This document shows, in pieces, positions 19,374 to 62,213 of a stretch of DNA of 64,000 bases. The translations under genes and the position numbers were made by a program. The first letter of the stretch is position 1. Each line of letters starts with the position of its first letter. A model generated the notes under the pieces. It was not told where the DNA came from and searched no databases. It saw only the letters and a list, made by a program, of their open reading frames with translations. Source of the DNA: Methylobacterium aquaticum. Lineage in GTDB: Bacteria; Pseudomonadota; Alphaproteobacteria; Rhizobiales; Beijerinckiaceae. Location: positions 2,865,001 through 2,929,000 of the forward strand of contig NZ_CP043627.1 of NCBI RefSeq assembly GCF_016804325.1, given 5' to 3'.

Positions 19374-20267
19374 GCGCGGGATTCCCGCTGCCAGGAGGAG
19401 GCCGGTCTGTGGATGGGGCGCGGTGGTGGTGCTTTTCCAAGCGCTCGGAGCAGGGACTGGCGGAAGGGGTGGGATTCAAGCGTTCGCCCTGCACATTATA
19501 AATATATGATATAAATAGGAAATAAGACTTGGCTCCGGATCGCTGTTGGACGTTTTGTTGGACACTGTCGGGTCTGTCCCCGTTGTGGTTTTCTGCAGTC
19601 CGGACGGGTCGCAAGAAAGCAAGGGCCGGTGTGGCCCAAGGGTGGCGACCTGATCCTCAGATCCCGTCCTGACGCGAGCCACGCGCCACCTCGGCCCTCA
19701 TCTCGTCCCAGAGCGGGTGCTGCAGCTGTACGGCCTCCTCAGCCGGCGCATCGAGCCAAGTGCGCCGCTCCTCAACGGTGGTGAGCAGCACCGGCATAGC
19801 CTTCGGATGCTCCGGCCTGACCGCGTCGTTCGCTTCCGTGGTCAGGAACGAGAACAGCGTGTGCTCCTCCTCAACAGGCTCGTCAGTTCAAGGCGTCGCA
19901 TCCCAATCACATCGGCGCTCACCCCACTCGTGACGCCCCTCTGCAGATACAGCTTGGTTGTCGCAGGTGTCAGCGCTTCCTCATAATATCTCTATAGTAA
20001 TAAACATCAACAGTAAATCTGGAATCATTGCTATTATCAGGATCCAATTTTTTGCAAATTACGAGGCATCGTTTAGTTTTTTATTTACTTATTGATACTC
20101 TGAGTAAGTTCGGAACTATGTGTGTATATCTCACTGGAATAAGTTTCCGCCTCAGACATCCGCCTTGCAGCTTGCGAAGGCGGAATGGTTACGCTAGCCT
20201 CAACAGATGGGCTCGTTCTGATGTACTACCACGGTCTTCCACCTCCGAACCTGAGGGGATTGTCGAT
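19374..20267. other. Accessory DNA without an intact gene
   Basis: This stretch holds the SRAP gene fragment (19657-19862) and otherwise shows no convincing coding sequence on either strand. GC content falls sharply after about 19980, which is the upstream region of the unknown gene pair. The change of composition marks the left side of an acquired segment. Confidence 0.5.
19657..19862 (-). pseudogene. SOS response-associated peptidase (SRAP/YedK) C-terminal fragment
   Basis: The minus strand reads the last 67 residues of an SRAP-domain protein: TLFSFLTTEANDAVRPEHPK, then AMPVLLTTVEERRTWLDAP and AEEAVQLQHPLWDE before a TGA at 19657-19659. The HPKAMPV(L/I)LT block is diagnostic; its His is part of the active site that handles abasic-site DNA-protein crosslinks. 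The catalytic N-terminal Cys and most of the domain are missing, and upstream codons no longer match. It is a dead remnant, probably left by a rearrangement. Confidence 0.75.
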
Positions 20268-23460: not shown

Positions 23461-23529
23461 GACCGTCTCTCCAGGTTGTGCAGGACTTGCGTGGTGCGCC
23501 GGCCGTGCGGCCCGGGCGTCAGACCAGGA

Positions 23530-36619: not shown

Positions 36620-36681
36620 CCTTTGTTGGGATTCGATCGTCCGCGTCCTACGGGTCGGAAGCGGACACCTGCCCGGCGGAA

Positions 36682-37155: not shown

Positions 37156-37380
37156 GCAGGACGTTCTACCGGCAAAGGGACCGCTCGTCTGCAATAGGTC
37201 GGAAGCGGCTGCTGACTCGCCCGAACGGTAGGAGCGGCCCGCCGCCGATCTCTAAACGGCGAGCCCCTCTGCCTACCAGCCGCTGGCGTTCCGCAGCACC
37301 TGCTCTCCCTCGCCTCGACGCCGCTGCTAATGTTCTATAAGGCGCGCGACCCGGGCTAGGACCATCGCTTCGCGAATACC
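37156..37380. other. Intergenic DNA without a recognised feature
   Basis: About 225 bases upstream of the VOC gene. No conserved open frame, hairpin or repeat stands out. Confidence 0.4.
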
Positions 37381-37503
37381 CTATCGGGCTCGGCAGTCAG
37401 TCAATTCACCCTCAAGCTCGCGGATGTGATGACGGGCGTGGGCGAAATTGGCTTCGATCGTGGTGATGTGGTCGACCACAGCGGTGACCACCTCGCCAAT
37501 CAC
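37381..37503 (-). CDS. Short ORF coupled to the repeat-containing gene
   Basis: A GTG at 37501-37503 overlaps the TGA of the upstream gene (GTGA). The frame encodes 40 residues (VIGEVVTAVVDHITTIEANF, then AHARHHIRELEGELTDCRAR) and ends at a TAG at 37381-37383. The peptide is a clean amphipathic helix with heptad-like spacing, unlike random out-of-frame sequence. It could be a small partner of the upstream protein. Coding status is uncertain because of its size. Confidence 0.4.
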   Translation of the reverse strand: MIGEVVTAVVDHITTIEANFAHARHHIRELEGELTDCRAR

Positions 37504-46451: not shown

Positions 46452-48586
46452 CAGAAGCGAGCCGTCATGCTGACGGTCACGCGCCGAGGCTCGCCGACGC
46501 CGACCCAGAACGAGTTGTAGGAGCGCTCGTAGTAGGTTGCGTCGAAGATGTTGTCGACGTTCAGCCCGAAGCGCAGGTTCTCGTACCGGTAGTAGACCAG
46601 GGCGTCGGCGAGCACGTAGCCCGGCAGCCGGAACCGCTCGTTGCCGCTGTCGCCCAGGCGCGAGCCGACTGCCCGGACGCCGCCGCCGATCCCGAAGCCC
46701 TTCCAGTCGCCGCCCTGGACCTCATACACGCCGAGCAGACTGCCCGAGTGGCGCGGGATGTTGAGGAGCGGCGAGCCGATCCGCAGAACCTCGTCGTGCG
46801 TCACCGCCGCGTCGATGAAGGCGTAGCCGCCGATCACCCGGAACTCGGGCGTCACCTGCCCGACGAAGCTCAGGTCGAAGCCCTGGCTGCGCACGGCCCC
46901 CGCGGCGATCTGGAAGAAGAAGTCCTTGGGATCGGTGGTGAGGACGTTCTCCTTCTCAATGTGGAAGGCCGCGGCCGTCACGCTCAGGCCCGTGAAGAGG
47001 TCGAGCTTGGCCCCGACCTCGTAACCGAAGCCCGTCTCCGGGGCGAAGGGGCGTGTCGCACTGTCGAAGCCGGTGTTCGGACGGAAGGAGGCCGCCACGT
47101 TGCCGTAGAGCGAGAGGAAGGACAGCGGCTGATAGACGAGCCCGGCACGTGGCGAGAAGCCAGTGCGGTCCTGCTCGGTGCGTTCCCCACCGACCTTGTC
47201 GCGGAAGGTCTGGTTGTAGAAATCGGTGCGGTTGCCGAGCAGGAGCTTCCACTCCGGGCTCAGGGCGATCTGGTCCTGCGCGTAGACGGCGGTGTTGCCG
47301 ACGTTCTCGCTGGCGCTGTAGCGGCGCGTGAAGGGCGGCTTGGGCTGGCCGTACACCGGGTTGAACAGGTCGAGCGCGAACGGGTCGATGCGCGGCGTTG
47401 AGCGCAGCAGGTTCTCGGTGCTGTTGTAGCGCTCGTGCTCCAGGCCGAGCAGCAGGGTGTGGGCGAACGGCCCGGTGTCGAAGCGCCCGACGAGTTCGGC
47501 TTGGCCGATGGCCACACCCCAGGTGAAGTCGTGGCGGCGGAACTCGCGGAGCAGGGTTCGCCCATCATCGAGCAGCCCGGTAGCGCCCGTCTGGAGACCA
47601 GTCAGGCTGCCGGTGTTGAAGTGGCCCGCGACCCGCAGGTTCCAGTCGGGGCTGAAGGCGTGCTCCAGCCGCACCTGCACGATCCCGCTCTCCGACACCG
47701 AGTTGTCACCCGGTTCGCCGAAGAACCGCGAGCGCGGGACGAGGCCGAGGCGGTCGTTCACCGCGACGGTGCCGCGGTCGAAGGTCTGGCGGTTACGCAG
47801 GTACTGCGTCTCGACGGTGAGCTTGGTGTCGGGGCTGATCTGCCAACTCACCACGGGCGCCGCCAGCACGCGGTCACCGTCGACGTAATCGCGAAAGCTG
47901 TCCTGGCGGGCGAGCGCGCCGTTGAAGCGGTAGAGGACAGTGCCGTCCTCGTTCAGGGGTCCGCCCGCATCGACGGTGGTGCGCGCCGTGCCGAAGCTGC
48001 CGAACAGGGTGCCCATCTCGACGAAGGGCAACGCCACGGGCTGCTTGGTAAGGATATTGACGGTGCCGCCCGGGTCGCTGCGCCCGTAGAGCGCCCCGCT
48101 CGGACCCTTCAGCACCTCGATCGACTGGACGTTCTGGGTATCGGGCGCGCCGTTGTAGCCGCGGGCGATGTTGAAGCCGTTCTGGAAGATGTCCTGGGTG
48201 GCGAAGCCCCGCACGGAGTAGAGGGCAAGGTTCTGGGCGCCGAAGTCGTTCTGCTTGCCGACCCCCGGGACGTAGTCGAGAGCGCGCTCCACGCGGGTAG
48301 CGGCGGTGTCGCGCAGCACCTCCCGGGGCACGACGTCGACCTGCTGGGGCAGGTCGCGCCGCGGCGTGATGGTCTTCGTGCCGCTGTAGAGTTCCTCGAC
48401 GCGATAGCTGGGCGTCGCCGTGAAGGTGCCTTCGACCGAGATCGGGTCGAGCGGGATGGTGGCGTCAGCCGCCGCGGCGGGACTTGCGGGCTGGGCGTAG
48501 CTCGGGATGACGGTGATCACGGGCGTGATCGCGCAGGCGGCGACAGCGCAGCGCCGCAGCGACGAATGGAGACGGGGCGGGTTCAC
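46451..48586 (-). CDS. TonB-dependent siderophore-type receptor under B12 control
   Basis: The 711-residue protein has a signal peptide, a TonB-box-like segment (LDPISVEGTFTATPSYRVEE), a plug with the siderophore-receptor hallmarks (ALDYVPGVGKQ, VRGFATQDIFQNGFN, VEVLKG-type VQSIEVLKGPSGALYG, then PGGTVNILTKQP) and a C-terminal barrel ending TVSMTARF. It resembles FhuE/FpvA-type receptors. A cobalamin riboswitch in its leader suggests that it imports a cobalt or B12-related ligand rather than ferric siderophore, or one whose need is tied to B12. It is coupled to the DUF1624 gene. Confidence 0.88.
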   Translation of the reverse strand: MNPPRLHSSLRRCAVAACAITPVITVIPSYAQPASPAAAADATIPLDPISVEGTFTATPSYRVEELYSGTKTITPRRDLPQQVDVVPREVLRDTAATRVERALDYVPGVGKQNDFGAQNLALYSVRGFATQDIFQNGFNIARGYNGAPDTQNVQSIEVLKGPSGALYGRSDPGGTVNILTKQPVALPFVEMGTLFGSFGTARTTVDAGGPLNEDGTVLYRFNGALARQDSFRDYVDGDRVLAAPVVSWQISPDTKLTVETQYLRNRQTFDRGTVAVNDRLGLVPRSRFFGEPGDNSVSESGIVQVRLEHAFSPDWNLRVAGHFNTGSLTGLQTGATGLLDDGRTLLREFRRHDFTWGVAIGQAELVGRFDTGPFAHTLLLGLEHERYNSTENLLRSTPRIDPFALDLFNPVYGQPKPPFTRRYSASENVGNTAVYAQDQIALSPEWKLLLGNRTDFYNQTFRDKVGGERTEQDRTGFSPRAGLVYQPLSFLSLYGNVAASFRPNTGFDSATRPFAPETGFGYEVGAKLDLFTGLSVTAAAFHIEKENVLTTDPKDFFFQIAAGAVRSQGFDLSFVGQVTPEFRVIGGYAFIDAAVTHDEVLRIGSPLLNIPRHSGSLLGVYEVQGGDWKGFGIGGGVRAVGSRLGDSGNERFRLPGYVLADALVYYRYENLRFGLNVDNIFDATYYERSYNSFWVGVGEPRRVTVSMTARF

Positions 48587-48703
48587 GGAGCCTCGGTGGA
48601 CGGCAGTGGCACGTCACCGCGAACGAGGTCTCAGGCGGAGGCAGGCGCATCCGCTTCGACACCCATCAGGAAATCCCGCCCGACGTGTTTCGCGTGTGAC
48701 CAC

Positions 48704-48886
48704 GGCTGACGGCAGGTCTCCTGGCTCGCGGGTCAGCGCCTGCCACCGTCTTCCCGGGTGAGGCACCCAGTGACTTCGGTGGTGGAAGGCTCGCCGCTCA
48801 CAGTTGCGGGTACAGCCGCGGCATCGGGCTCTCCGCCCTCACCGTGTTCCCTTTTGATCCTCCGGGGAGGAACCGTCCTGTCCAGG
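48704..48886 (-). ncRNA. Cobalamin riboswitch
   Basis: On the minus strand the order is GGTTCCTCCCCGG, GGGAACACGGTGAGG, the GTACCCGCAACTGTGAGCG conserved segment, a stem with GGGAAGACGG, and the terminal GAGCCAGGAGACCTGCC. It lies about 120 bases before the siderophore-type TonB receptor gene. It shares extended identity of motifs with the riboswitch at 39.5 kb, so both receptor operons should respond to the same ligand. Confidence 0.92.
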
Positions 48887-48971
48887 GAAGCCGATCAACC
48901 GGCGCGTCGTCAATGTCGCGATTCGCTTTACAGGGCATGTGTGTTCGGAGGGTGACAGCAACTACTCCCAC

Positions 48972-49220
48972 TCAAACGCAGGTGATCAAGGTCGGCGCCC
49001 TCTTCGTGATCTTCCTGAAAAGATCAGCGTCACCCTGGACGGCGAAGTCGAACGCGATCGTTCCAGTCTCCATGTAGACCCTGTATCGCCAGTCGTTGTC
49101 GATGAAATGCACACACCACTCGCGCGTCCGATCAAGGAGTATCTGGTCGCTTGGGCCCGTAAACGTGAAACTACCGATGGCGGTATCGGCAACAGAGTTC
49201 ATGCTGAAATTTGGCTTCAT
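48972..49220 (-). CDS. Small hypothetical protein
   Basis: From the ATG at 49218-49220 the product is 82 residues with a beta-rich pattern (IGSFTFTGPSDQILLDRTRE, WCVHFIDNDWRYRVYMETGT). It is acidic and has lower GC than the receptor genes. No family is recognised. It is divergent from a 100-residue gene starting at 49275. Confidence 0.5.
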   Translation of the reverse strand: MKPNFSMNSVADTAIGSFTFTGPSDQILLDRTREWCVHFIDNDWRYRVYMETGTIAFDFAVQGDADLFRKITKRAPTLITCV

Positions 49221-49274
49221 GATCAACCTAAATAACTTGACAGATATATTTATCCCACTTGCTCAATCCCGGCT

Positions 49275-49577
49275 ATGCTCTACGGACACCAAATCATCGC
49301 GACCGCCAACGCCGTGATCGCCCTCGGCCTGACCCACTCGCATCAGTCGTTCTCTCTGAACTTCTGCGCGAGGGATCGCAGCTACCTTCGCGACTTCAAA
49401 CGGCGCGGCGGTGCGACGGCGCGTGTCTCACCCCAAACGATGCTGGCTGTCAGATCACGGTTGGCCGAGGCGGCTTCCCTTCGCCCAGATCTCGCCTCCG
49501 AGATCGAGAAGATCGACGTGGCGATCGTCAGGGATATGCGTGTGGCCAATCTCCTGGGTCGTCGCTCGTACCGTTGA
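49275..49577 (+). CDS. Small hypothetical protein
   Basis: The 100-residue product (LYGHQIIATANAVIALGLTH, then DRSYLRDFKRRGGATARVSP) is largely helical, with a tyrosine-leucine-arginine motif that might contact nucleic acid. It reads rightward, toward the minus-strand cluster. No family is recognised; the coding call rests on codon use and length only. Confidence 0.5.
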   Translation: MLYGHQIIATANAVIALGLTHSHQSFSLNFCARDRSYLRDFKRRGGATARVSPQTMLAVRSRLAEAASLRPDLASEIEKIDVAIVRDMRVANLLGRRSYR

Positions 49578-49602
49578 TCCGACTTGCGGCTTGGTCGAAA
49601 AC

Positions 49603-49968
49603 TTAGGTGTCCTTCGGCTCCTTCTTGAAAGTCACGATCCTCAGTGGCGGGCGTGATCTTTGAGCAGCCTCGGCGGCGTCCTCGAATTCGGCAAGCCGCT
49701 TTTCTAGGTGGGAGGCGTATGCACGTTCGTGCTCCAGATCAGTGACAAGAGAGGCGATCGTCGCCTCCGCTTCAAGGACCTCGACGCGTAGCGCTTCCAG
49801 TTCTATCTGTGTGCTGGCGCGTGCTCGAAGAACATCCACCAGACCCCGAAGAACTTCGAGGTTGTGCCGCATGACCGTCGTATGGTCTTCTGGACGCTGA
49901 AGCCTTGTTCGAACAACTTCCGCTCTCTCAAAGACCTTCAAGCCGAACGGCGGCCATGCCTTCATCAT
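49603..49968 (-). CDS. Coiled-coil protein at the end of the unknown cluster
   Basis: The 121-residue protein starts at the ATG at 49966-49968, overlapping the stop of the upstream 426-residue gene. From residue 30 to 105 it is a continuous charged helix with heptad spacing (ALRVEVLEAEATIASLVTDL), ending in a basic tail. Coupled expression with the upstream gene suggests that the two act together, but neither has a known family. Confidence 0.6.
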   Translation of the reverse strand: MMKAWPPFGLKVFERAEVVRTRLQRPEDHTTVMRHNLEVLRGLVDVLRARASTQIELEALRVEVLEAEATIASLVTDLEHERAYASHLEKRLAEFEDAAEAAQRSRPPLRIVTFKKEPKDT

Positions 49969-51245
49969 GCAAACTCGGCTGCCGATGCCGCCACTCCAAA
50001 TTCCCGAACAAGGCTGTCGAGTTCTTCCTCGATCTCTGCGAGACTGAGTGGCTCCGGGGTGTCAAATTCATTGACGTCCGCGATATTCCAATCGTAGATG
50101 TCAAGCAGCTTGGCTGCCGCATTTACGCCAGCGATGCCGTTCGCGGGGCGGTCGTAGATTGCGATACCGTGGGCCGCGAGTTTGCTACGAGCAGCCGCAG
50201 CAAGATCTCGGGGAACTCGCCCATTGCCGCGTTGATGGAGCATGTGAAGGACCCAGCATCGAGAGGTTCGTCTCAGTTCGGCAATCAGACCGCGGCTGCG
50301 GCCAGTTTTGACCTCAACATACAGATTGCGCCCTACCAGCACGTCAGGGATTTTAGTCGAGAGGCAGTTATCGTAGCGGCGCCCGGCGTCGAGTAGCGCA
50401 GCCCCCGTGTTCAACACCACCAGGGACGGGTCGGCAAGTTCGAGTAGAAATGGCAATTGGTCAAACCGTTTCGCCCACCGCCGCACTAATGCTTCGACGA
50501 TCTTCTGCTCGGGGAAGGACGAAACTGACTGCCAGATCGCCTCGTTGGTGGCGGCTGAGCAGTGGGCGCGAATGTAAGCAAAGGCGTCGCTGAGGTCGCG
50601 AGCCTCCTCGACCGTCTCGATCTTCATCACGAAGCGGGGATGCAGGAGGACGGGGTCGATGACCATCACGATCGCGATCTGCATCGGCGAGATGGTGCCC
50701 GGCAACTGCCGTAGAACGCGAACTCGGGCGCGGTCGGCGGGAATGCGAGACGCGAAGAGTTGGTAAAGCTCTCGATACAGAGCGGGGTTGGGTAGCGGAC
50801 CGGGGCCGAGGCGCTTGAGAGTGCCGAGGAAGGCGTTCGGGACGACCTTGAAGATGGCCTCGACGATCTCGCGAGGCTTGAAGACCGCAAGGGCCCTGCC
50901 GATCACCGCCTGATCGGAGTCGGCGTTCCTGATGGCGGACGATACCTCGGCACTGCCAAGGCGGTTTGCGAGTGCCGCGGCACCCCCGGTCGCAATCTCC
51001 GCATACGCCAGGAACCTCGTCTGGCGGGCCAGATCGGATCCGTGAAGAGCCAGCCCAAGGTGTCCAGGATACACCGCGTCAAGTTCCACGGCGATTTGAA
51101 GGTAGGTCTCGCCAAAGGGGCGAGGCCCAAACTTACGTGCGCCTGTCGGGTTCAAGCGTAGCTCCGTGGATGTTCCGCTTGAACCAGCGTGATACAATTC
51201 CAAATTTCCGCAACGATTTCCGAGCGCGTAGAAACTACATAGCAC
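49965..51245 (-). CDS. Unknown 426-residue protein with CLS-type motif
   Basis: The GTG at 51243-51245 is the longest start; the true start may be later. The product is helical through residue 270 and then contains GRRYDNCLSTKIPDVLVGRN and LYVEVKTGRSRGLIAELRR, an arrangement of a conserved Cys followed by a beta strand with Glu and Lys that could be an enzymatic or nucleic-acid-related core. I know no family that fits with confidence. It is coupled to a coiled-coil protein downstream and preceded by other unknown minus-strand genes, forming a cluster. Confidence 0.6.
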   Translation of the reverse strand: MLCSFYALGNRCGNLELYHAGSSGTSTELRLNPTGARKFGPRPFGETYLQIAVELDAVYPGHLGLALHGSDLARQTRFLAYAEIATGGAAALANRLGSAEVSSAIRNADSDQAVIGRALAVFKPREIVEAIFKVVPNAFLGTLKRLGPGPLPNPALYRELYQLFASRIPADRARVRVLRQLPGTISPMQIAIVMVIDPVLLHPRFVMKIETVEEARDLSDAFAYIRAHCSAATNEAIWQSVSSFPEQKIVEALVRRWAKRFDQLPFLLELADPSLVVLNTGAALLDAGRRYDNCLSTKIPDVLVGRNLYVEVKTGRSRGLIAELRRTSRCWVLHMLHQRGNGRVPRDLAAAARSKLAAHGIAIYDRPANGIAGVNAAAKLLDIYDWNIADVNEFDTPEPLSLAEIEEELDSLVREFGVAASAAEFA

Positions 51246-51277
51246 CCGCTCGGTCTGGGTCCCGCGACGGCATGAAG

Positions 51278-51802
51278 CTATCGGGCGATAGGCTTCGACA
51301 AGCTCCAGTCGATAGCCAGCTTGCGGGCCTTAACCCCTCTGGCCGTCCCTCGCGCTTGCGCCAGGACTCGGTCAAGATCGGGCTCGCGCGCTGCCACTTC
51401 TTCGAACCGGATAAGGCGGGATAGGACCCGGGCCATGCTCTTCATCTTCGCTCTCGGCGGTGGATCCTCAAGGATGCATCTGACCGCCACGTAGGCCGAC
51501 AGGACGCGCTGAGCGCGATGAATGCCCGCCGCAGCAAGGGCGACGATCACCTGCTGAAGCTCGACGGATAGCTCGGTGGTCGCTCTCAGCAGCGGGGTGA
51601 CCTGATCTTGCTCCACGTCAACGAGGACGACTCCGGCGAGGTCGTATTCGCCGGTGAGAAGAAGCTCGGTGGCGGTGTCGGCCAGGGTGGCTACCATCAT
51701 GCTCGACGATCTCGCGGCTACCGCGACAAGCGGGGTGATGCGATGCTTGAACGGGTCGTCGACCTTCTGGACGAGATTTACCGAGCAAAGGCGGCGTAAC
51801 AC
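51278..51802 (-). CDS. Unknown helical protein
   Basis: The frame is open from a GTG at 51802, but an ATG pair at 51700 gives a more usual N-terminus (MMVATLADTATELLLTGEYD). The product is helix-rich (LLRATTELSVELQQVIVALA, RAQRVLSAYVAVRCILEDPP) and ends in a basic tail. It lies 32 bases before the 426-residue gene and probably shares its transcript. No family is recognised. Confidence 0.55.
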   Translation of the reverse strand: MLRRLCSVNLVQKVDDPFKHRITPLVAVAARSSSMMVATLADTATELLLTGEYDLAGVVLVDVEQDQVTPLLRATTELSVELQQVIVALAAAGIHRAQRVLSAYVAVRCILEDPPPRAKMKSMARVLSRLIRFEEVAAREPDLDRVLAQARGTARGVKARKLAIDWSLSKPIAR

Positions 51803-51846
51803 CGGCGCCCAAACGATCGCCCGGTACAGTAGGCCGATCGATCATG

Positions 51847-51882
51847 GGACCAACCAACCGGAACCCTCCGGTTGGTTGGTCC
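51847..51882. terminator. Perfect 16-bp hairpin, terminator-like
   Basis: A perfect 16-base stem (GGACCAACCAACCGGA and its complement) encloses a four-base loop ACCC and is followed by TTCTT on the plus strand. It is the strongest simple hairpin in the window. It may stop plus-strand transcription, or act as a boundary between the minus-strand genes 52162-52686 and 51278-51802. Confidence 0.6.
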
Positions 51883-52161
51883 TTCTTGGTGCGGCATGCA
51901 CAAGTCTTCGCCTACAATAGCCTGCCGCCCCAAAATTCCTTCAATTGGTCCGGTTGGTACAGTTGGTTGAAGAGCTTTTTCGTGTCCGTCATTGAACGTT
52001 CAAGGAGACGTTTCGGGGCGGTTAGCCAGAAGTAGTGGCCGACTGTTTATGCCGAGGCACCGCACATCATCATTAAGGCCGCGTCGGCGACCTGTGTATC
52101 CCGTGATGAGCGTTCTTCCCGTCACCAACCGTTCGAGGCCAAGGCGGTAGTACACTGGGTC

Positions 52162-52686
52162 CTACTTTCCCGCTCGCTGGTCGATCCGCGCTCCGGCGTC
52201 GCGCAGGCGGTCTTCGTGCGAGCGTCCGTCCTCGAAATCAGAACCCCAAAATCGATCAGCGACCTCCGCGATCGGGACGATGTAGGGAGTTCTGTTCGAG
52301 ATCTTTGCAAGTAATGCGTCGGGCTCATAGCCATGGCGGGCAGCAACACCTTCCTCGTGAGCGGCCTGCATCATGTCGACTACGCCGTCAGGTAGGCGTG
52401 AAACCCTTCTGAAGTCCATACGCGGATTGCACGCGTCCATGACCCCGAGCCATTCTGAGGCGGTGAGGAGGGGCATCTCGTCCTCGACCATGAACCGGTA
52501 GCGCTCACAGATCATGTCGATGCGCTCGGCCCGGGAGAGTCCCTCTCGGTCGACCCGCTTCTCGCACCGCACGTCCTTCAACGCGGCATAGAGGTGGTCT
52601 TTGCCTTTGAGCAGAAGCGAGATGTGCCGCTGCCGGTCGTCCTTCGGAACAGCCTTGGCCCGACCCTTCCGCTTCATCTCCACCAC
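52162..52686 (-). CDS. Unknown protein, helical and charged
   Basis: The GTG at 52684-52686 has AGGGAG upstream; an ATG three codons later is the alternative. The 174-residue product has a basic N-terminus (KRKGRAKAVPKDDRQRHISL) and a helical middle (DMICERYRFMVEDEMPLLTA, SEWLGVMDACNP). It starts four bases after the stop of the 72-residue gene, so the two form a small operon. No domain is recognised. Confidence 0.6.
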   Translation of the reverse strand: MVEMKRKGRAKAVPKDDRQRHISLLLKGKDHLYAALKDVRCEKRVDREGLSRAERIDMICERYRFMVEDEMPLLTASEWLGVMDACNPRMDFRRVSRLPDGVVDMMQAAHEEGVAARHGYEPDALLAKISNRTPYIVPIAEVADRFWGSDFEDGRSHEDRLRDAGARIDQRAGK

Positions 52687-52689
52687 GTC

Positions 52690-52908
52690 CTACTCCCTGG
52701 TACTACCGATTAACACGGACAGGCTCGTAACAGGATCGTTCGGTCCTGCCAAGCGGTTGTCAACCACGGTACTACCTGCTGGAATGACGGCTACGTCGTA
52801 TCCCTGATCGAACCAATCCCGGTCGTATCGCGGAGGGGTAATCCGCATAGATCGTTGCGGTGGCGATCTCACGCGCCTTGCTTCGATCGCTTCGATCGCT
52901 TCGGCCAC
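52690..52908 (-). CDS. Small unknown protein
   Basis: A 72-residue product from a GTG at 52906-52908. It begins with an EAIEAIEARR repeat helix, then a YDRDWFDQGYDVAVIPAGST segment and a short hydrophobic end. The nearly immediate start of the next gene implies co-translation; the layout recalls two-gene toxin-antitoxin units, but no family supports that. Confidence 0.5.
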   Translation of the reverse strand: MAEAIEAIEARRVRSPPQRSMRITPPRYDRDWFDQGYDVAVIPAGSTVVDNRLAGPNDPVTSLSVLIGSTRE

Positions 52909-52940
52909 GATCGTGGTGAGGCTCCTCGGATCGTCCTGCC

Positions 52941-53303
52941 CTACGATGCGCGCTGTGGCCGCCGATCCAGCCGTCCGCGCGTAGCTGGCTGATCGTAGAC
53001 GTCGAGCGCCACGCCGATTATGGAGCCAGTGATTAGCGCCGACCGCTCGGGGCGACGATCATCGGGGGGGCCTTGCGAGATCGTCGGCATCATCGTCACC
53101 CGGGAGGTGCCCCGAACCCTGGCTCGGTCGCCATAGGGCCTGCCGGGACCGTCGCGGAGAACGTCGAAGGTAGCGCGCAGTGCGCTCGGCAGGACGTTGG
53201 TGGGCACGGTGGGCGCGATCGCCGCCGGGGCGGTGATCCCCGAGACCATCCACCAACGCTGTGCCGACTCCGCGTGCGCGGCCGTCACAAGCCGCCCGCG
53301 CAC
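52941..53303 (-). CDS. Small unknown protein
   Basis: The open frame encodes 120 residues; an ATG at 53249 (MVSGITAPAAIAPTVPTNVL) is a more natural start. The middle (LPSALRATFDVLRDGPGRPY) is helical and the end basic. It lies about 75 bases from the att copy at 53377, making it the last gene before the island boundary. Coding status is moderately supported. Confidence 0.45.
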   Translation of the reverse strand: MRGRLVTAAHAESAQRWWMVSGITAPAAIAPTVPTNVLPSALRATFDVLRDGPGRPYGDRARVRGTSRVTMMPTISQGPPDDRRPERSALITGSIIGVALDVYDQPATRGRLDRRPQRAS

Positions 53304-53376
53304 GCTCTGGGATTAAGCCACTACGAACAATAACGAATTGCCTTCAAGACCTCCTCCGGGCACCGAGCAGATCGAC

Positions 53377-53688
53377 CTTGAAAACCGCCGTGGGGGCAAC
53401 TCCACCGTGGGTTCGAATCCCACCCCTTCCGCCAGAAATTTCAATGACTTAGGTGAGATTGACCGACGCGAACTTCGTCGGACTCCGCCGTGTCTGTGCC
53501 CAGGCTTGTGCCGAGCTTTGCCATTGCGCGGTGGAGGTGATCGGTCACGAGATGCGAGTAGCGCATCGTCATGGTCACGGTTCGATGGCCGAGGATCGCC
53601 TGAAGAGCGGCAAGGTCGCCGGTTTTCATCAGGAAGACCGAGGCGAACCGGTGGCGGAGATCGTGACAGCGCCACGGCACGCCCGCAC
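53377..53688 (+). repeat. Inverted copy of tRNA-Ser 3' end plus integrase 3' end (att-like)
   Basis: Bases 53377-53434 repeat the tRNA-Ser from its anticodon loop (CTTGAAAACC) to GCCA. From 53435 to 53688 the sequence matches the reverse complement of the 3' end of the integrase gene, giving 312 bases in all. The same segment occurs at 57566-57877 in the opposite orientation. The encoded 79 integrase residues are identical, so the duplication is recent. The tRNA part lacks the 5' half and cannot be functional. It marks the left edge of the ATPase island. Confidence 0.9.
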
Positions 53689-53743
53689 TGGTTCATGCTT
53701 TGACTGCCGCTAATGCGAGGATGAAAATTTATTCAGACGTCAT

Positions 53744-53780
53744 CGTCGCCTGTTTTTCAGGAAAAACAAAACAGGCGACG
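53744..53780. terminator. 13-bp hairpin downstream of the island ATPase gene
   Basis: CGTCGCCTGTTTT at 53744-53756 pairs perfectly with AAAACAGGCGACG at 53768-53780, with an 11-base loop. It lies about 140 bases after the ATPase stop. Internal T-runs in the stem suggest a factor-independent or bidirectional terminator, though a clean terminal T-tail is lacking. Confidence 0.45.
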
Positions 53781-53917
53781 CCATAATATGTGCCGATATC
53801 TGCTCAAGATGAGTATTGTTTCTATTTCGTTGGTCATCTTCGGCTGATCGGCCAAACATTTGTGCTATCCAACCCTTGTATTGTCCGAATGTATAATCAT
53901 TTATTTTAGTATTTTAT

Positions 53918-56053
53918 TCAATCATCTTCGCGTATATTGAGATATCTGTCCTGATTTCTATCAAAATATTCTTTCGCGGCTTCCGGTCTAAGCCGATACA
54001 CACGCCGAGAATTTTCCTTCCTAATTCGGTCAAGCAATCCTCTCTCTTCCATTATCTTGCCACGTCGCCCGATAAGTTGGTAAGAACAATCTAACTCTTC
54101 AGCGATTTCCCGAGCGTAGAGATCCCGATTCTCTGTGTGCAAAGTCTCAAGCATGCCTAATTCGATTTCAGGCAGTAATAATTCGGGGCGTATATTGTTA
54201 ATCACCTCACCGTAGCGTTGGGACAGATTGGTTACTTCACATTTTCCACTTTTGCATTTTGGGCAAAGCATATCAAAAAGAGCCAAACTCGACAGTTTAT
54301 CTACGCCATAAACCTCACCGCAGTTGCCGCACTTAATTTCCTGATTGTGCTCCAAGTATCGCCTGAGTATATTGGTAAAATCAAAAAACCTCTCAACAAA
54401 ATAGAGGCGAAACTCTCGACGTCCAACAGGGCGCCCAAATTCGATGCTATATTTGTTACACATTCCAAAATTGAGTGCGTATACGGAGACTTTTCGACCG
54501 TCCCTATCCTTCATCTCAAAATATTTCGTCATAAAAAAATTAAGTTCTAACGTCGAAAGGAGGTCGTCAAGTTCGCTAACGACATGGAAATGACTTGTTG
54601 GGGGTTGCCCGTGGATATCCTTAGTAACAGCGGACCCACGATAATTTCTTAGTTCGCGTGATCGTGTCACTATATCCTCTAGAAGTTCTTTTAAGCTGAA
54701 CGCCGAGGATCTTTCGGAAAAGGTTTCTTGACGAAATTTCTGGATACCGAAAAACGGCTCAATTTTCTCATCGTAATATTTGACTGACGCATCTCTCACG
54801 GCCCGATTTGTCACCAATCTCGTATATGCAATGTGTGACTCCTGTAAATTATATAAAATATGTCCCAGCGTCCTCGGATTTCCCATGCTTGCGAAAAAAA
54901 GATTTTTTATTATCTCCTCATAATTTGATCTACAAAGATCTTCGAACGGAATTTTGCAAAAATATTTGATTCTGTTGTCTAGTAGTCTGGCTGTGAAATC
55001 CACCCCTTTTTCTTCCATTGTAATAACATCATTTGATCCATAAAGTTTAAAAAGATCGAGATAAATCTCATCCATCTTCAACGGATCTATCTTGCCGTAG
55101 TAAATTCTTCCAGGATATGCCGCAATTTTAAATTTGATGAGTTCGTTCGACCAGTTATTTAGAGGACTTAGTATCGCATCAACGAAAACACGCATTGCAT
55201 CTTCAGGCAACTCTGAAAAATCATCGATGAATATAAACAGATTTCTCACTTCGATTACGTGCAAAATTTCTTGCAATTCTTCGATTATGCCTGTAATATT
55301 TAACGTGCGCATAAGCAGGCGCGAGTAGCTGTTTTCCGACTCTTGCTCAGCGCTGGATGCATTCTCTACATTAAAGCTCCCGGTCAATTCTGCACTGATA
55401 GCGCTTTCGCTGGCCGAGACTTTTCCCGAAGAGCTAAGCTTTGTCGCACCTGAAGCCTTAGCATTTTGCTTTTCTTTTTGGCCGTGATGTTGCAATGCGG
55501 TGATATCAGTTACCTGCACACTGAGAGATGTATCAATTAGTTCATCCAATCGCTCAAATATTTGAACTGGTCCTCGACCCATTTTATCTCGCAACTTGTT
55601 TAAAAAAGAATGTTCAATTTGTTTCCTCAATTCTGCTTTTATCTCGGATAAAACACTGCGCATAAATGATTTAAACAGCAATAGCTGCCTAATCGCGTCT
55701 TGGCTGAGCGCTGCGTTCTCGCCAGCCGCTTTCGCGAGAAGCGCTGGATCAACAGATGCCGATTCAAAAACCGTCTTGATATCCACATATGCTGAAACAG
55801 AACGTTTCTGCTTTCTGATTTCATGCTGCGCCCGCTGGAAAATCGTTGACTTACCCGTTCCTTTTCTGCCCACTAAAAATGTTGTATTTGATCGAAGAAT
55901 AGTTTCCAGAGTCGCGTTGTTAGGTAAGGGATCGACGTAAAGCTGCTCAATCAGCGGTCGGTCCTTCTGATCGACTAATTCGGCCCGCCTATATAGTTTC
56001 AACGACTGAGCGGCGTCAGCGAATCCCTTAACAGTTTTTTTGTCATATGTCAT
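53918..56053 (-). CDS. Island-encoded P-loop ATPase with zinc ribbon and winged helix
   Basis: The 711-residue protein starts at the ATG at 56051-56053. Walker A is GRKGTGKST at residues 62-70 and Walker B is LFIFIDD at about 272-278, an unusually long spacing filled by helical and Ser/Ala-rich sequence (roughly 180-245). GNPRTLGHIL at 391-400 resembles the sensor-2 GxPR of ORC/STAND-type ATPases. CGNCG (575-579) and CPKC (597-600) form a zinc ribbon, and a winged helix lies at about 630-690 (EIAEELDCSYQLIGRRGKIM). It is extremely AT-rich for this genome and the only complete cargo gene between the att copies. A phage-defence or element-maintenance ATPase is the best inference; I recognise no named family. 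Confidence 0.75.
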   Translation of the reverse strand: MTYDKKTVKGFADAAQSLKLYRRAELVDQKDRPLIEQLYVDPLPNNATLETILRSNTTFLVGRKGTGKSTIFQRAQHEIRKQKRSVSAYVDIKTVFESASVDPALLAKAAGENAALSQDAIRQLLLFKSFMRSVLSEIKAELRKQIEHSFLNKLRDKMGRGPVQIFERLDELIDTSLSVQVTDITALQHHGQKEKQNAKASGATKLSSSGKVSASESAISAELTGSFNVENASSAEQESENSYSRLLMRTLNITGIIEELQEILHVIEVRNLFIFIDDFSELPEDAMRVFVDAILSPLNNWSNELIKFKIAAYPGRIYYGKIDPLKMDEIYLDLFKLYGSNDVITMEEKGVDFTARLLDNRIKYFCKIPFEDLCRSNYEEIIKNLFFASMGNPRTLGHILYNLQESHIAYTRLVTNRAVRDASVKYYDEKIEPFFGIQKFRQETFSERSSAFSLKELLEDIVTRSRELRNYRGSAVTKDIHGQPPTSHFHVVSELDDLLSTLELNFFMTKYFEMKDRDGRKVSVYALNFGMCNKYSIEFGRPVGRREFRLYFVERFFDFTNILRRYLEHNQEIKCGNCGEVYGVDKLSSLALFDMLCPKCKSGKCEVTNLSQRYGEVINNIRPELLLPEIELGMLETLHTENRDLYAREIAEELDCSYQLIGRRGKIMEERGLLDRIRKENSRRVYRLRPEAAKEYFDRNQDRYLNIREDD

Positions 56054-56757
56054 GATTGGCCGAATCCAACGTAAGTTGGCGCCAGCTTAGGCATATGCAA
56101 CCTTTTGTCAAGAAACGCTGAATACGTGAGGGGTTTGAAAGGTGCGATTTGAGTTAGTCAACATCGTCATTTGCTTAAATCATGAAAGTACCGGCGTGAA
56201 TCTGAGTAATATTGCTACGAGCGCGAATTTTCTGGGAGCAGATATTATGAAATTTTCGCTCGTACTTTTGATTCTGACTCGAGCCTGAGATATGAAGTAT
56301 TTTGTCGATGTAGGCAATAAATAAACAGTATATTAATATTATTCCTAAATAATTATATATAATCGATTTTCAGTAATTCATATACGAAACTATGGCGGTT
56401 AATATTTTTCTAAGTAGATACTTACGTGATTGTTATGTCCGCACGGCGGAAAAAATACCTGCCAAGTATTTGTAATATGCGAACTTTAAAAGCCGCGTAA
56501 ATTGTCGGTTGCCGGACTCTGCCCGCAGTGCTCCTAGGTCCAAGGCGATGCTCGTTTAGGTACTTCGTGTACGAATTATAGAAAGGTGTGCTGCCGTTTC
56601 TGCACGATAGCTGAAAGTGATGGTCTGCCTGCCACTGTCCCCCTCCCTGCCGCTTCTCATCAGAATAACGCTTTCGACCCAGCGGGGGATCGAAAATAGT
56701 TGCCGGATTTCGCGATCGTGCGACCCTCGTTTGCTGAGCTTCAGCAGGAGGGGATGA
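56054..56757. other. Long AT-rich intergenic region of the island
   Basis: Seven hundred bases separate the divergent ATPase and integrase genes. It contains an imperfect hairpin at 56217-56263 (ACGAGCG.GAATTT / AAATTTTCGCTCGT) and long A/T stretches around 56320-56420. Minus-strand open frames at the right are not credible as protein. It probably holds both promoters and could encode a small RNA. Confidence 0.5.
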
Positions 56758-57813
56758 GTGGCGTCGGTTTACAAGCGGGGGCAGACCTATTGGATCCGGT
56801 TCCAATGGCGCAGTCGAGAAGTTCGACGTTCGGCAAGAACGGCTTCCAAGGCCGTCGCCCAACAGTACCTCGCGCAGGTGCTAGAGGAGCACCGCCGCCT
56901 CGATCGCGGTGGTCGTCCACGCCGGAGCTACAAGGAAGCGCTTGAGAGGTTCGCGCTCGAGTTCATGCCCACCCTCCGACCCGCGACCCAACGTCGCTAT
57001 CGGTCCAGTTTGCGGCTACTCGAACCTCACTTCGGTGACTGCTACCTCGACGAGATCAACAAGACCCGCCTGAGCGACTACGTGACCGCGCGGCGACGTG
57101 GCGGAGCTATGGGGGCAACTATCAGGCGTGACCTCGCCACCTTGAGCGGCGTTTGCTCCTGCGCAGTAGCTTGGGACTACATCGACCTCAACCCCGTTAA
57201 AGCTTTCGATAAGCGGCACATCAGGGAAGCGCCGCCGCGGACTTCCTTCCCGAGTAAGGCTGAGGTCGAGCGTCTCGTCGCACACGCTTCACCAATGGTC
57301 GGGCGGATCATCCGGTTCTTGGCCGCCACGGGCATGCGCCAGGAGGAGGCCGTTTCCCTGGAATGGTCGCAGGTCTCGATCGAGCGGCGCGAGATCCGCC
57401 TTACGAAAACCAAGACCTCGAGCCCGCGCGTTGTGCCGCTGAGCGACGAAGCCCTGACCGTCCTAGTCGGAACCCCTCGGCACATTACCCGGCACCACGT
57501 TTTCTGGAACGGCGACGGCCGCCGCTACACGCATTTTGCCAGTCAGTACCGTAATATCGCGAGGCGTGCGGGCGTGCCGTGGCGCTGTCACGATCTCCGC
57601 CACCGGTTCGCCTCGGTCTTCCTGATGAAAACCGGCGACCTTGCCGCTCTTCAGGCGATCCTCGGCCATCGAACCGTGACCATGACGATGCGCTACTCGC
57701 ATCTCGTGACCGATCACCTCCACCGCGCAATGGCAAAGCTCGGCACAAGCCTGGGCACAGACACGGCGGAGTCCGACGAAGTTCGCGTCGGTCAATCTCA
57801 CCTAAGTCATTGA
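56758..57813 (+). CDS. Tyrosine-type site-specific integrase
   Basis: The 351-residue integrase starts at a GTG at 56758 preceded by AGGAGGGG. It has an N-terminal arm-binding region (SVYKRGQTYWIRFQWRSREV), a SAM-like core-binding domain, and a catalytic domain with Arg in ATGMRQEEAVSLEW, the box HDLRHRFASVF, and LGHRTVTMTMRYSHL with nucleophile Tyr. Its 3' end abuts tRNA-Ser (UGA), the expected attachment site. An identical copy of its last 79 codons lies inverted at 53.4-53.7 kb. Confidence 0.92.
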   Translation: MASVYKRGQTYWIRFQWRSREVRRSARTASKAVAQQYLAQVLEEHRRLDRGGRPRRSYKEALERFALEFMPTLRPATQRRYRSSLRLLEPHFGDCYLDEINKTRLSDYVTARRRGGAMGATIRRDLATLSGVCSCAVAWDYIDLNPVKAFDKRHIREAPPRTSFPSKAEVERLVAHASPMVGRIIRFLAATGMRQEEAVSLEWSQVSIERREIRLTKTKTSSPRVVPLSDEALTVLVGTPRHITRHHVFWNGDGRRYTHFASQYRNIARRAGVPWRCHDLRHRFASVFLMKTGDLAALQAILGHRTVTMTMRYSHLVTDHLHRAMAKLGTSLGTDTAESDEVRVGQSHLSH

Positions 57814-57877
57814 AATTTCTGGCGGAAGGGGTGGGATTCGAACCCACGGTGGAGTTGCCCCCACGGCGGTTTTCAAG
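57566..57877 (-). repeat. Right copy of the att/integrase inverted repeat
   Basis: This is the partner of the repeat at 53377-53688; positions add up to 111254 at every base checked. It covers the integrase 3' end, the short spacer and the tRNA-Ser sequence from the 3' CCA to the anticodon loop. The pair encloses the whole ATPase island in inverted orientation, unlike the direct repeats of a simple integration. Confidence 0.9.
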
Positions 57878-57909
57878 ACCGCTGCCTTAAACCACTCGGC
57901 CACCCTTCC
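57820..57909 (-). tRNA. tRNA-Ser (anticodon UGA)
   Basis: Read on the minus strand: acceptor GGAAGGG...CCCTTCC with discriminator G and encoded CCA, D-arm GGCCGAGTGGTTTAAGGC, anticodon loop CTTGAAA with UGA, a long variable arm (class II) and T-loop GTTCGAATC. Length is 90 bases with CCA. The tRNA 3' half is the attachment site for the neighbouring integrase. Confidence 0.97.
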
Positions 57910-58082
57910 GAACCGGCTGCGGGCGCTTGCGAACCCGCCGCGGGCGCCTCTGGCCCGGGCCTCTTCTGTAGGGCGCGGCGCGGGATTGCGTCAACCGGGG
58001 CCGGTCCGCCTATCGCACGGCGCGGCGGCGACGTACGGTGCGGGCCGGGACGAGCGGCGCGCCGCGCCGGAGGGAGACCCGC

Positions 58083-58460
58083 ATGGGCTACGTGTACGAC
58101 CATCTCCACCTGCGCAGCCGGGACGCGGTGGCGGCGGCGCGGTTCTACGGCGAGGTGCTGGGCGCCCGGGAGACCGGGCGCGAGGGCGGCGAGAGCCCGA
58201 GCCGGATCATCCTGGATCTCGGCGGGATGCGGATGTTCATCGAGCAGGCGCCCGAGGGCACCGGGCCGGCCGCCGTGCCGCCGCATCGCGGCATCGAGCA
58301 TATCGGGCTTCGCGTCGAGGACATCGAGGCGACGGTGGCGGATCTCGCCGCCCGCGGCATCCCCCTGGTCTCGGGCATCACCGACGTGAAGCCGGGCCTG
58401 CGGATCGCCTTCTTCGAGGGACCGGACGGCGTGCGCATCGAGGTGCTGCAGCGCGGCTGA
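58083..58460 (+). CDS. VOC-family (lactoylglutathione lyase-like) protein
   Basis: The ATG at 58083 follows a strong CGGAGGGAG. The 125-residue product has the two-module VOC layout: YDHLHLRSRDAVAAARFYGE, the IILDLGGMRMFIEQAPEG strands, HIGLRVEDIEATVADLAARG and a final FEGPDGVRIEVLQRG. His10 in HLHLRS, His79 in IEHIGLRV and Glu122 in IEVLQ are plausible metal ligands. It may act on a small aldehyde adduct or be a binding protein; the substrate is unknown. It stands alone between tRNA-Ser and the cyclase gene. Confidence 0.85.
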   Translation: MGYVYDHLHLRSRDAVAAARFYGEVLGARETGREGGESPSRIILDLGGMRMFIEQAPEGTGPAAVPPHRGIEHIGLRVEDIEATVADLAARGIPLVSGITDVKPGLRIAFFEGPDGVRIEVLQRG

Positions 58461-58489
58461 CCCCGCCTCCGCCCGGGCCGGTCCCGAAC

Positions 58490-58616
58490 CTTATACCAAT
58501 GGCCCAAGATGCTGACGCATCGGGCCACTGAGCCATCTCGAATTGTCTATGCCAAGCCAGAGGCTTGACGAAAATTCGAGAACGGAACCAAAGGTCGTTT
58601 CCGACGACCGTTGGTA
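58490..58616. repeat. Palindromic intergenic repeat with ATACCAA ends
   Basis: The segment starts with TTATACCAATGGCCC and ends with CCGTTGGTATTAC, giving inverted ATACCAA/TTGGTAT termini. It also contains CGAATTGTCTATGCC and an internal AAAGGTCGTTTCCGACGACC hairpin. The form is that of a small non-autonomous or REP-like unit. A related GTAATACCAA end is seen at about 21962. Confidence 0.5.
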
Positions 58617-60080
58617 TTACTCGGCGACGTGGACCACGATCGGCTGGGTGCGGCCGCGCAGGGTCAGGGGCAGCGAGCGGGTGAAGCGGGCCGCCACCTC
58701 CGGCCCGGCCGCCGCGAGGCAGCATTCGGAGGCGAGGATGCGGCCGCCGACCTCGCGGGTGGCGGCCTGCAGGCGGCTCGCGACGTTGACGACGTCGCCG
58801 ATCACCGTGAACTCGATCCGCTGGTCGGCGCCGATGTTGCCGATCACCACCGGGCCGCAATGCACGCCGACCGCGACCCGGATCGGCGGCGCCCCGCGGG
58901 CCGCGCGCTTGGCGGTCCAGGCGTCGATCTCGCGCTGGAGGTCGACCGCGCAGGCCACCGCCCGGGCGGCCCCGTCGCCGCGCCCGTCGAGGCCGCCGAA
59001 GGTCGCCATGAAGCCGTCGCCGAGGAACTTGTCGAGGGTTCCGGCATGGCGGAACACCACCTTGCAGCTGCGCTCGCGAAAGCCGCGCAGCAGCGCGAAG
59101 GCGCGCTCCGGCTCCAGGTCCTCGCTCAACCCGGTGAAGCCGACCATGTCGGCGAACAACACCGCCACCACCCGGGTCTGCGGCGTACCGAAGCCCGCAT
59201 GGGCCCGGGCCGCCAGGGCGTCGGCGACGTCGGGCGAGACGTAGCGGGCGAGGTCGGACCGCACCACCTCGGCGCGTACCTGCGCCAGCATCGTGCCCCG
59301 GCCCCGCCACACCGCGATGGCGAGCAGCAGGGTGAACAGGCCGGTGACGATGGCTTGCGTCCATAGCGGGGTCAGGCCGACATAGGCCGGGTCGAGGAAG
59401 ACCCGCAACGCCGCCTCGGCGCTCAACGACCCGTCGTGGACGGTGTCGGCGAAGCGCACGGTATCCGCGCGGCCGTAGACCAGCCAGACGCCGGACGACC
59501 AGATCGCCACGATCCAGGTGCCGGTCCAGAGCACCGCGACCGGCCAGTAGGTCAGCGCCGCCTCGCCCAGCAGCAGCAGCACGTAGAGGAATTCCGGGGT
59601 GCGCAGGCGGGTCTGAATCGGCCAGTCGACCCCGAGCCCGGCCGGCGGCGGCATGATGATCGCCGTGGTCATCAGCGCGATGTCGAGGAGTGTGAAGCCG
59701 AGCTTGATCGGCCCCGCCCATCGGTGGCGGCGGAGCCGGTAGGGCACGTAGCCGAGGAGGAAGAACAGGCCGGCGACGGCGAGGTAGTACAGGTTGCGCG
59801 GCCAGGGCACGAGGATCAGGAGCCACAGCGACACCACCAGGATGGCGACGGCGCGGGCCCGGAACGCGAAGGCGAGGCCGGCGAGCTCGGCGGCGCGCAC
59901 GTTCTCGGCCAGCCGCCCGCGGGCCCGGGGCGGCAGCTTTCCGGCGAGCCAGTGGCGCAGGCGCGCGACCCGCAGGCTGGTGCGGAAGGCGAGCATGCGG
60001 GCGAGGCTCGTTCGGGCGAGGCCCGAGGCCTTCGGCTCGGACAGGGGCGGCGGCTCGGCCGCCGCGATGGGCTCACTCAC
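58617..60080 (-). CDS. Membrane-anchored class III adenylate/guanylate cyclase
   Basis: The 487-residue protein starts at the ATG at 60078-60080. About six TM segments occupy residues 60-270 (FRARAVAILVVSLWLLILVP, LGEAALTYWPVAVLWTGTWI). A C-terminal class III cyclase domain follows at roughly 305-480, with metal-binding VLFADMVGFTGLS and the KFLGDGFMATFGG motif, then VAVGVHCGPVVIGNIG and GDVVNVASRLQ. It should make cAMP or cGMP at the inner membrane. The two catalytic aspartates are present. Confidence 0.92.
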   Translation of the reverse strand: MSEPIAAAEPPPLSEPKASGLARTSLARMLAFRTSLRVARLRHWLAGKLPPRARGRLAENVRAAELAGLAFAFRARAVAILVVSLWLLILVPWPRNLYYLAVAGLFFLLGYVPYRLRRHRWAGPIKLGFTLLDIALMTTAIIMPPPAGLGVDWPIQTRLRTPEFLYVLLLLGEAALTYWPVAVLWTGTWIVAIWSSGVWLVYGRADTVRFADTVHDGSLSAEAALRVFLDPAYVGLTPLWTQAIVTGLFTLLLAIAVWRGRGTMLAQVRAEVVRSDLARYVSPDVADALAARAHAGFGTPQTRVVAVLFADMVGFTGLSEDLEPERAFALLRGFRERSCKVVFRHAGTLDKFLGDGFMATFGGLDGRGDGAARAVACAVDLQREIDAWTAKRAARGAPPIRVAVGVHCGPVVIGNIGADQRIEFTVIGDVVNVASRLQAATREVGGRILASECCLAAAGPEVAARFTRSLPLTLRGRTQPIVVHVAE

Positions 60081-60181
60081 GGATCAGGTCGCCAGGCTCC
60101 CGCTCTTCCCCATGATGGTAGGGCATGCGGCGGCGCAGCGAAGCCCCCGGGCGTTGAATTGACCGTGATGCGGGGGCCCCC

Positions 60182-61182
<1,001 letters not shown>

Positions 61183-61186
<4 letters not shown>

Positions 61187-62205
61187 CGGACGGCCTCCGC
61201 GCTGGCGCCGACGGGATGGTCCTGGCGGATGCGGGCCTCGCGCGACGGATCGTCGAGCGGATAGTGGCAGCGCACGAAACCGTCCTGCCACGGCCGCAGC
61301 GCCGGGCGCTGTTCCCGCGAATGATCGGTGGCGTAGGTGCAGCGCGGCGAGAACAGGCAGCCGCGCGGGCGGTCGTAGAGGCCCGGCACCACGCCCGGGA
61401 TGGTGGCGAGCCGCCCGCCCTCGCTGCGCTCGGGCAAAGCCGCCAGCAGGGCCGCGGTGTAGGGGTGCTGGGGCGAGGCGAAGAGCGCGTCGGCGCGCCT
61501 CTCCTCCATCACCTGGCCGGCATACATCACCATCATCCGGTCGGCGGTCTCGGCGACCACGCCCATGTTGTGGGTGATGAGAACGAGCGCCATGCCGCGC
61601 TCGCGCTGGAGCGAGAGCAGCAGGTCGAGGATCTGGGCCTGGATGGTGACGTCGAGGGCGGTCGTCGGCTCGTCGGCGATGAGGAGCTTCGGGTTGCAGG
61701 CGATCGCCATGGCGATCATCACCCGCTGGTTCATGCCGCCGGAGAGCTGGTGCGGGTAGGACGACAGCCGGCTCTCGGCCGCCGGGATGCCGACCTGCTC
61801 CAGGAGCTCGATCGCCCGCTTCCTCGCCGCCTTGCGGTCGAGGCCGAGATGCTGGCGCAAGCTCTCGGTGATCTGGAAGCCGATCGTGAAGCAGGGGTTG
61901 AGGCTGGTGGTCGGCTCCTGGAAGATCATCGCCACGTCGCGGCCGGTGAGGCGGCGGCGCTCGCGCGCCGGCATGCCGAGCAGGTCGCGCCCGGCGAAGG
62001 CGAGGCGGTCGGCGGAGACCCGGCCCGGATAGGCGACGAGGCCCATCAGCGCCATCATGGTCACGCTCTTGCCCGAGCCCGATTCGCCGACGACGCCGAG
62101 CACCTCCCCCTCCTCCAGGGTCAGGCTGACGCCGTCGACGGCCTGGAGCGTGCCGCCGGCGGAGGGGAATTCGACGGAGAGGTTGGTGATCTCGAGGAGC
62201 GGCAT
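61183..62205 (-). CDS. Oligopeptide/dipeptide ABC transporter ATPase (DppD/OppD type)
   Basis: The ATG at 62203-62205 begins [18 protein letters not shown]. The 340-residue ATPase has Walker A GESGSGKS at about 40-47, signature [15 protein letters not shown], Walker [13 protein letters not shown] and the [21 protein letters not shown]-terminal motif. It is the partner of the DppF-type subunit. The gene lies eight bases after the permease stop, and its stop overlaps the dppF-like start. Confidence 0.92.
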
Positions 62206-62213
62206 GGGTCGCC

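Follow-up and report, generated by a model that had tools for sequence, protein, structure and literature searches.

An ORC/Cdc6-like ATPase of Methylobacterium aquaticum distantly related to the DS-41 anti-phage protein: a candidate immune or exclusion factor

ATPases of the origin recognition complex (ORC)/Cdc6 type are best known as the replication initiators of archaea and eukaryotes; in Orc1/Cdc6, ATP-bound protomers assemble on DNA with a winged helix. Their clade is already known from defense, in BREX, as set out in passages of PMC12839542, and, through its superfamily, in DS-41. The BREX protein BrxC/DUF499 resembles the protein described below in having an ORC/Cdc6-clade ATPase followed by a winged helix, but the same passages give it 1,200–1,300 residues and place it in multi-gene systems (the comparison is by description only). 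DS-41, which is found on E. coli plasmids, is named in PMC13092281 among the transcription units that protect E. coli MG1655 from phage; judging from its name, the model NF053860 ("DS41_1") represents that system. Here, we analyze an ATPase gene in a 64,000-nucleotide (nt) stretch of the Methylobacterium aquaticum genome (contig NZ_CP043627.1, positions 2,865,001 to 2,929,000), which is called the window throughout. With moderate confidence, we favor the reading that the product of this gene is an ORC/Cdc6-like AAA+ ATPase that works on its own as an accessory immune or exclusion factor and is carried between bacteria on mobile elements. Support for an anti-phage role is indirect and consists of distant homology to DS-41 (46 of 47 family members), patchy occurrence, and mobile contexts. 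An earlier note, made from the sequence alone, had suggested an undescribed one-gene system. "Undescribed" holds for the family, for which no descriptive paper was found in the open-license PMC literature, but not for the superfamily, which already holds a tested defense protein. A word search of PMC7159879 gave no mention of ORC.

The ATPase and its relation to Sll1717 and DS-41

The open reading frame (ORF) has a G+C content of 0.419, compared with 0.715 at 58000–64000 and 0.66 across the window. Its stop-free run extends over 722 codons, whereas in 300 dinucleotide-preserving shuffles of 53690–56750 the median was 113 and the longest 234; because of this difference and the 1,541 homologues described below, the ORF is not due to chance. 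Its parts are listed here with their conservation in an alignment of 30 sequences (the window protein, 28 genome loci, and one plasmid).

53918..56053 (−): ORC/Cdc6-like ATPase ORF, 711 amino acids (aa), ATG start
55844..55870 (−): Walker A, GRKGTGKST, residues 62–70, including Lys68 (28/28 aligned sequences that reach Walker A)
55256..55756 (−): Walker A-to-B insert, residues ~100–266, helical in the AlphaFold model with low confidence at 178–250
55211..55243 (−): Walker B, LFIFIDDFSE, residues 271–281, with Asp277 and Asp278 (both 30/30)
54872..54883 (−): GNPR, residues 391–394 (Pro393 and Arg394 30/30; Asn392 29/30)
54473..54592 (−): first winged helix, residues ~488–527, from AlphaFold models; the aligned stretch of A. 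pernix ORC2 stops at 527
54254..54331 (−): C4 zinc ribbon, Cys 575/578/597/600 (each 30/30)
53936..54178 (−): MarR-type winged helix, residues ~626–706, with the Pfam MarR match at 635–685
56072..56089 (no strand): imperfect palindrome 19–36 nt 5′ of the ATPase ATG, a possible operator; nine other upstream regions have palindromes that differ from it or have none

The ATPase core has Walker A, Walker B, and a sensor-2-like Arg and is followed by a winged helix, which is the ORC/Cdc6-type architecture; GNPR would occupy the sensor-2 position of ORC-like ATPases. The features named in the earlier note, namely Walker motifs separated by about 200 residues, a GxPR motif, a CxxC...CxxC zinc ribbon, a DNA-binding winged helix, and AT-rich composition in strong contrast to the surroundings, are all in place. 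The spacing between the Walker motifs stays at 200–219 residues in 27 of the 30 aligned sequences (both motifs detectable by pattern), and the insert is therefore a conserved part of the protein. Archaeal and eukaryotic Orc1/Cdc6 differ from the window ATPase, which has the large helical insert, the zinc ribbon, and the additional MarR-type winged helix. Taken together, these parts point to a DNA-binding AAA+ switch in which no nuclease is recognized. The gene is split into two ORFs at three loci (L008, L026, and L034), which may reflect sequencing errors in some of them, and a database entry 98% identical to the window ATPase (P0008) spans residues 248–711 only.

A homologue search scored 7,991 candidates, restricted to those sharing most words, and 1,541 of them reached E ≤ 0.001, with the best 120 listed; the true size of the family is probably greater. 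When a relative of 33% identity served as the query, 1,461 homologues were returned among 7,995 candidates, including Bacillota by name. The Pfam model PF24389 (ORC-CDC6-like) matched the window ATPase with 25.3 bits (E 8.1e-6), just below its gathering score of 27, and the same label is precomputed on many of the listed homologues (e.g., P0001, P0002, and P0007). Structural alignment of the ATPase model with A. pernix ORC2 supports an ORC-type fold, so the ORC-type assignment offered in the earlier note agrees with both profile and structure. The orc1/cdc6 model TIGR02928 matched one of 47 diverse family members.

The Sll1717 model NF047389 matched the window ATPase with 38 bits (E 1.1e-9; curated cut-off 75) and the DS41_1_antiphage model NF053860 with 27.4 bits (E 1.5e-6; curated cut-off 370). 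Among the 47 diverse members, Sll1717 matched all and DS41_1 matched 46 (E ≤ 1e-3), all distantly, and two proteins above the DS-41 cut-off, one of them on an E. coli plasmid typed IncF, also scored above the Sll1717 cut-off; one of the two passes PF24389 as well (27.5 bits). Because the distant matches run through the whole family and true DS-41 proteins also pass Sll1717, we regard the window family as sister to the Sll1717/DS-41 ATPases and not as part of either group, although the hhalign comparison with DS-41 given below counts against this. DS-41 is a homologous P-loop ATPase, likewise with Walker A near the N terminus and with an SPR motif after Walker B, but it is shorter (~500 aa), and no MarR-type domain was found in the two proteins examined. 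Paired CxxC motifs were seen by eye at the end of one of these (L043) and not in the other. A true Sll1717 member (L046, 565–2631; family match E 8.7e-81) carries an ECKNY motif near its C terminus that resembles a PD-(D/E)XK nuclease by eye, whereas no such motif was recognized in the window ATPase; if genuine, this end would suit a defense role of the superfamily.

Additional DS-41 members were found in one of 297 genomes of one family and in five E. coli plasmid records, with none in phage records or among viral contigs. An E. coli IncF plasmid (L074, 1754–3262) encodes a "hypothetical protein" that scores 414.7 bits, above the DS-41 cut-off; genes of the RelE/ParE toxin type and of the CopG type lie about 1.5 kb from it.

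The family profile gave weak matches in the PDB, mainly MarR-type, and the PDB list for a C-terminal model (residues 435–711) is dominated by winged helices at the C-terminal end; since these fill the list, residues ~535–620 were little probed. A BFVD search with the ATPase model produced no match at E ≤ 0.001. The only PDB sequence matches of the window protein were prions (E 0.7 or worse), which we took as chance.

Distribution, genomic contexts, and competing explanations

The gene is rare. A draw of 385 genomes from the class contained three carriers (E ≤ 1e-20), and a draw of 398 from the phylum contained one (E ≤ 1e-30); the window's own genome is counted in both. A pattern scan located it at 34 loci on GTDB contigs and on three viral contigs in IMG/VR. 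A homologue occurs in one of the 72,556 plasmid records in PLSDB and in two of 50,697 phage records, both of phage KSF-1phi. E. coli complete genomes contain no DNA match to the Enterobacter relative.

Several relatives sit among mobile genes. A recombinase adjoins the ATPase at L018; at L006 there is a recombinase with, by eye, an AlpA-like and a HipA-like ORF. Phage portal genes lie close to the ATPase at L012 and L032, and a terminase gene at L032; these phage genes look P2-like. Beyond the portal gene of L032, a 464-aa protein (3494–4888) matches phrog_5978 and other phage families that have no assigned function. On a small mobilizable Enterobacter plasmid, the ATPase (2830–4986) follows rep (1901–2833) with a 4-nt overlap (annotated ORF). 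tRNA genes occur within ~2.2 kb at 5 of 39 loci scanned (L003, L008, L012, L019, and L023), many of the loci having short flanks.

In the filamentous phage KSF-1phi (L042, 6535–6900), an N-terminal piece of the ATPase is present at 56% identity over residues 11–99. Vibrio cholerae is listed with pieces 94–99% identical to this fragment, which has 40 relatives, eight of them named partial, in a search that admits short proteins only. We considered the fragment as an anti-defense decoy and set this aside, as the copy looks truncated and decay is the simpler reading. Carriage on a mobilizable plasmid, in truncated form in a filamentous phage, and near phage portal genes would also suit a selfish passenger, with which mobile elements exclude their competitors (superinfection exclusion) and for which protection of the cell is not the purpose. 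We regard this as quite improbable: the phage copy aligns over residues 11–99 only, and with three viral contigs in the IMG/VR scan, viral carriage looks uncommon. Its mechanism also overlaps with that of the immune or exclusion factor that we favor.

The overlap with rep bears on a different proposal, that the ATPase is an initiator-like maintenance factor that helps its carrier element to replicate or persist and leaves invaders unaffected. The ORC/Cdc6-like fold and the 700 nt of AT-rich intergenic DNA that precede the window gene point the same way. Against this, no iteron-like array (no repeat family of three or more copies) was found in ten upstream regions, that of the window having one two-copy 12-nt repeat, although this does not exclude an origin role. 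Furthermore, contigs longer than 100 kb (which may include megaplasmids) hold 15 of the 34 genome loci, housekeeping families are among the listed neighbors, and a single PLSDB record holds a homologue. The earlier note held that confinement to plasmid replication loci would speak against its proposal; given the large-contig loci and the lack of any plasmid replication family among the 25 neighbor families listed out of 103, such confinement is not seen, despite the one rep overlap and although some of the large contigs may be megaplasmids. We consider the maintenance role unlikely.

We are similarly doubtful that the protein is an ATP-dependent transcription regulator, that is, a STAND-like activator or repressor of neighbor or host genes with MarR-type DNA binding. 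All-against-all BLASTP of 492 ORFs (≥90 aa) from 37 loci, which distant relatives would escape, gave no useful recurrent partner and so no recurrent neighbor to control. The commonest group, ABC-transporter ATPases by eye, appeared at 6 of the 37 loci. A methyltransferase-like ORF with a DPPY motif, 3′ of the gene in L013 and with a relative in L035, was dropped because two loci, both of Acidobacteriota, are too few. Rare presence in genomes also speaks against a regulator, for which an ORC-like core bearing both a zinc ribbon and two winged helices would be unusual. The lack of a recurrent neighbor is in keeping with the one-gene system of the earlier note.

A number of results weigh against an immune or exclusion factor. 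No nuclease or other effector domain was recognized in the window ATPase by Pfam, PADLOC, or NCBIfam scans, and no experiment or phenotype for the family was found in the open-license PMC literature. The Sll1717 and DS41_1 scores of the window ATPase fall well under both curated cut-offs; hhalign between the window family and one DS-41 sequence gave no significant match (probability 1.5%); and Foldseek with the ATPase model gave no PDB match at E ≤ 0.001. A 28-row tree covering seven phyla, built by a quick method and with one long branch, clusters by phylum (7 changes with a minimum of 6, a shuffled mean of 10.5, and a value as low in 0 of 200 shuffles), so transfer between phyla looks limited; it occurs, as in the mixing of Pedobacter next to Acidobacteriaceae (support 96, starred), and is not rampant.

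The neighborhoods count on the same side. We scanned 150 of 168 inner ORFs (18 from L033, L034, L038, and L039 were left out) and 150 outer ORFs drawn at random from 251 that lie farther away. PADLOC (E ≤ 1e-8; tallies are of families, not proteins) matched 21 families in the inner set, each in one member and seven of them MTase_II methyltransferase models, and 13 in the outer set, five of them PbeC models, with mad3 in four members. Several matches are generic, and the two sets are not convincingly different. The inner ORFs matched 103 Pfam families, those among the 25 listed being mostly ordinary or housekeeping, and an integrase family occurred in only 2 of the 150 (E ≤ 1e-6). The survey for defense islands advised in the earlier note therefore came out without a clear difference, and we do not claim an association; the note's anti-phage reading keeps the distant DS-41 homology, the patchiness, and the mobile contexts, but defense-gene enrichment is not among its supports. 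No BREX family is among the PADLOC matches of the inner neighbors.

The tRNA-Ser locus and the possible extent of the island

The tRNA setting given in the earlier note is correct, as a tyrosine recombinase gene lies beside a tRNA-Ser gene next to the ATPase.

56758..57813 (+): tyrosine recombinase/integrase, 351 aa, PF00589 E 1.5e-24, adjoining tRNA-Ser
57820..57909 (−): tRNA-Ser(TGA), the likely integration site, disturbed in related genomes also
57566..57877 (no strand): right arm of an inverted repeat (integrase 3′ end and tRNA 3′ part), perfect, 312 nt
53377..53688 (no strand): left arm, an inverted att-like copy starting in anticodon-loop sequence, perfect, 312 nt
19458..19477 (−): direct repeat of the last 20 nt of tRNA-Ser (3′ end), candidate far island end

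Between the arms of the 312-nt inverted repeat lie the ATPase and most of the integrase gene, and the 30-nt core of the repeat occurs at only two sites in the genome with up to three mismatches, namely the two arms. If the arms recombined, the segment would be inverted and the integrase left intact; the repeat could also be an assembly artifact. In one related genome (G534), the entire tRNA lies ~21 kb from the flank with its 5′ part, and in another (G522), the tRNA is followed by sequence that resembles the integrase 3′ end at ~80%; from these arrangements, the tRNA-Ser gene seems to have served as an integration site more than once.

The 92% match between G522 and the window runs up to 19362, just left of the 20-nt tRNA copy, and on these two grounds the full island may extend from 19.46 to 57.88 kb. 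No empty integration site was observed, as the related contig stops at this point. "Single-gene cargo", the description in the earlier note, accordingly fits the AT-rich patch but not the mobile region, which is possibly larger, with phage-type genes, a TonB receptor gene, and many others between the tRNA and its copy. The phage-type genes encode an Mtd_N domain (23970–27488), a baseplate hub/BR0599 protein (30248–31939), and a Mu-type transposase (33291–34790), which suggests a Mu-like prophage within the possible island at 20000–38000.

Other features of the region were recorded in passing. A cobalamin riboswitch (48694–48890, −; E 1e-30) lies upstream of the TonB-dependent receptor gene (46451–48586, −); apart from it, an Rfam search of 48500–58500 at gathering scores found only the tRNA. 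Left of the ATPase, at 49965–52686, three minus-strand ORFs (426, 174, and 174 aa) have no credible match in Pfam, PADLOC, NCBIfam, or PHROGs. A ~130-nt repeat at 58490–58622 has at least eight other copies in its own genome at 96–98% identity (nine candidates scored), is missing at the matching spot in four aligned related genomes, and is probably a short mobile element.

Proposed mechanism and implications

By analogy with Orc1/Cdc6, we propose that ATP drives assembly on DNA: the ATP-bound protein would assemble through its AAA+ cores on invading DNA, with the winged helices, the zinc ribbon, and the expanded insert gripping that DNA. Once assembled, it may block replication or transcription of the invader, in the manner of an initiator that is loaded without ever firing. 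Direct obstruction is the simplest mechanism because the protein has extra DNA-contact modules and no recurrent partner.

A more specific idea, which we hold to be improbable, is a bacterial "origin-recognition" class of immunity, in which lone proteins without a nuclease recognize invading phages and plasmids at their replication start sites or forks and occupy these. If it were true, the conserved helical insert, the zinc ribbon, and the additional winged helix would be extensions of an ORC/Cdc6 assembly mechanism. The gene seems to act alone. The link between an unnamed, widespread bacterial branch of these ATPases and a tested anti-phage protein suggests that origin-recognition machinery may have become immunity more than once.
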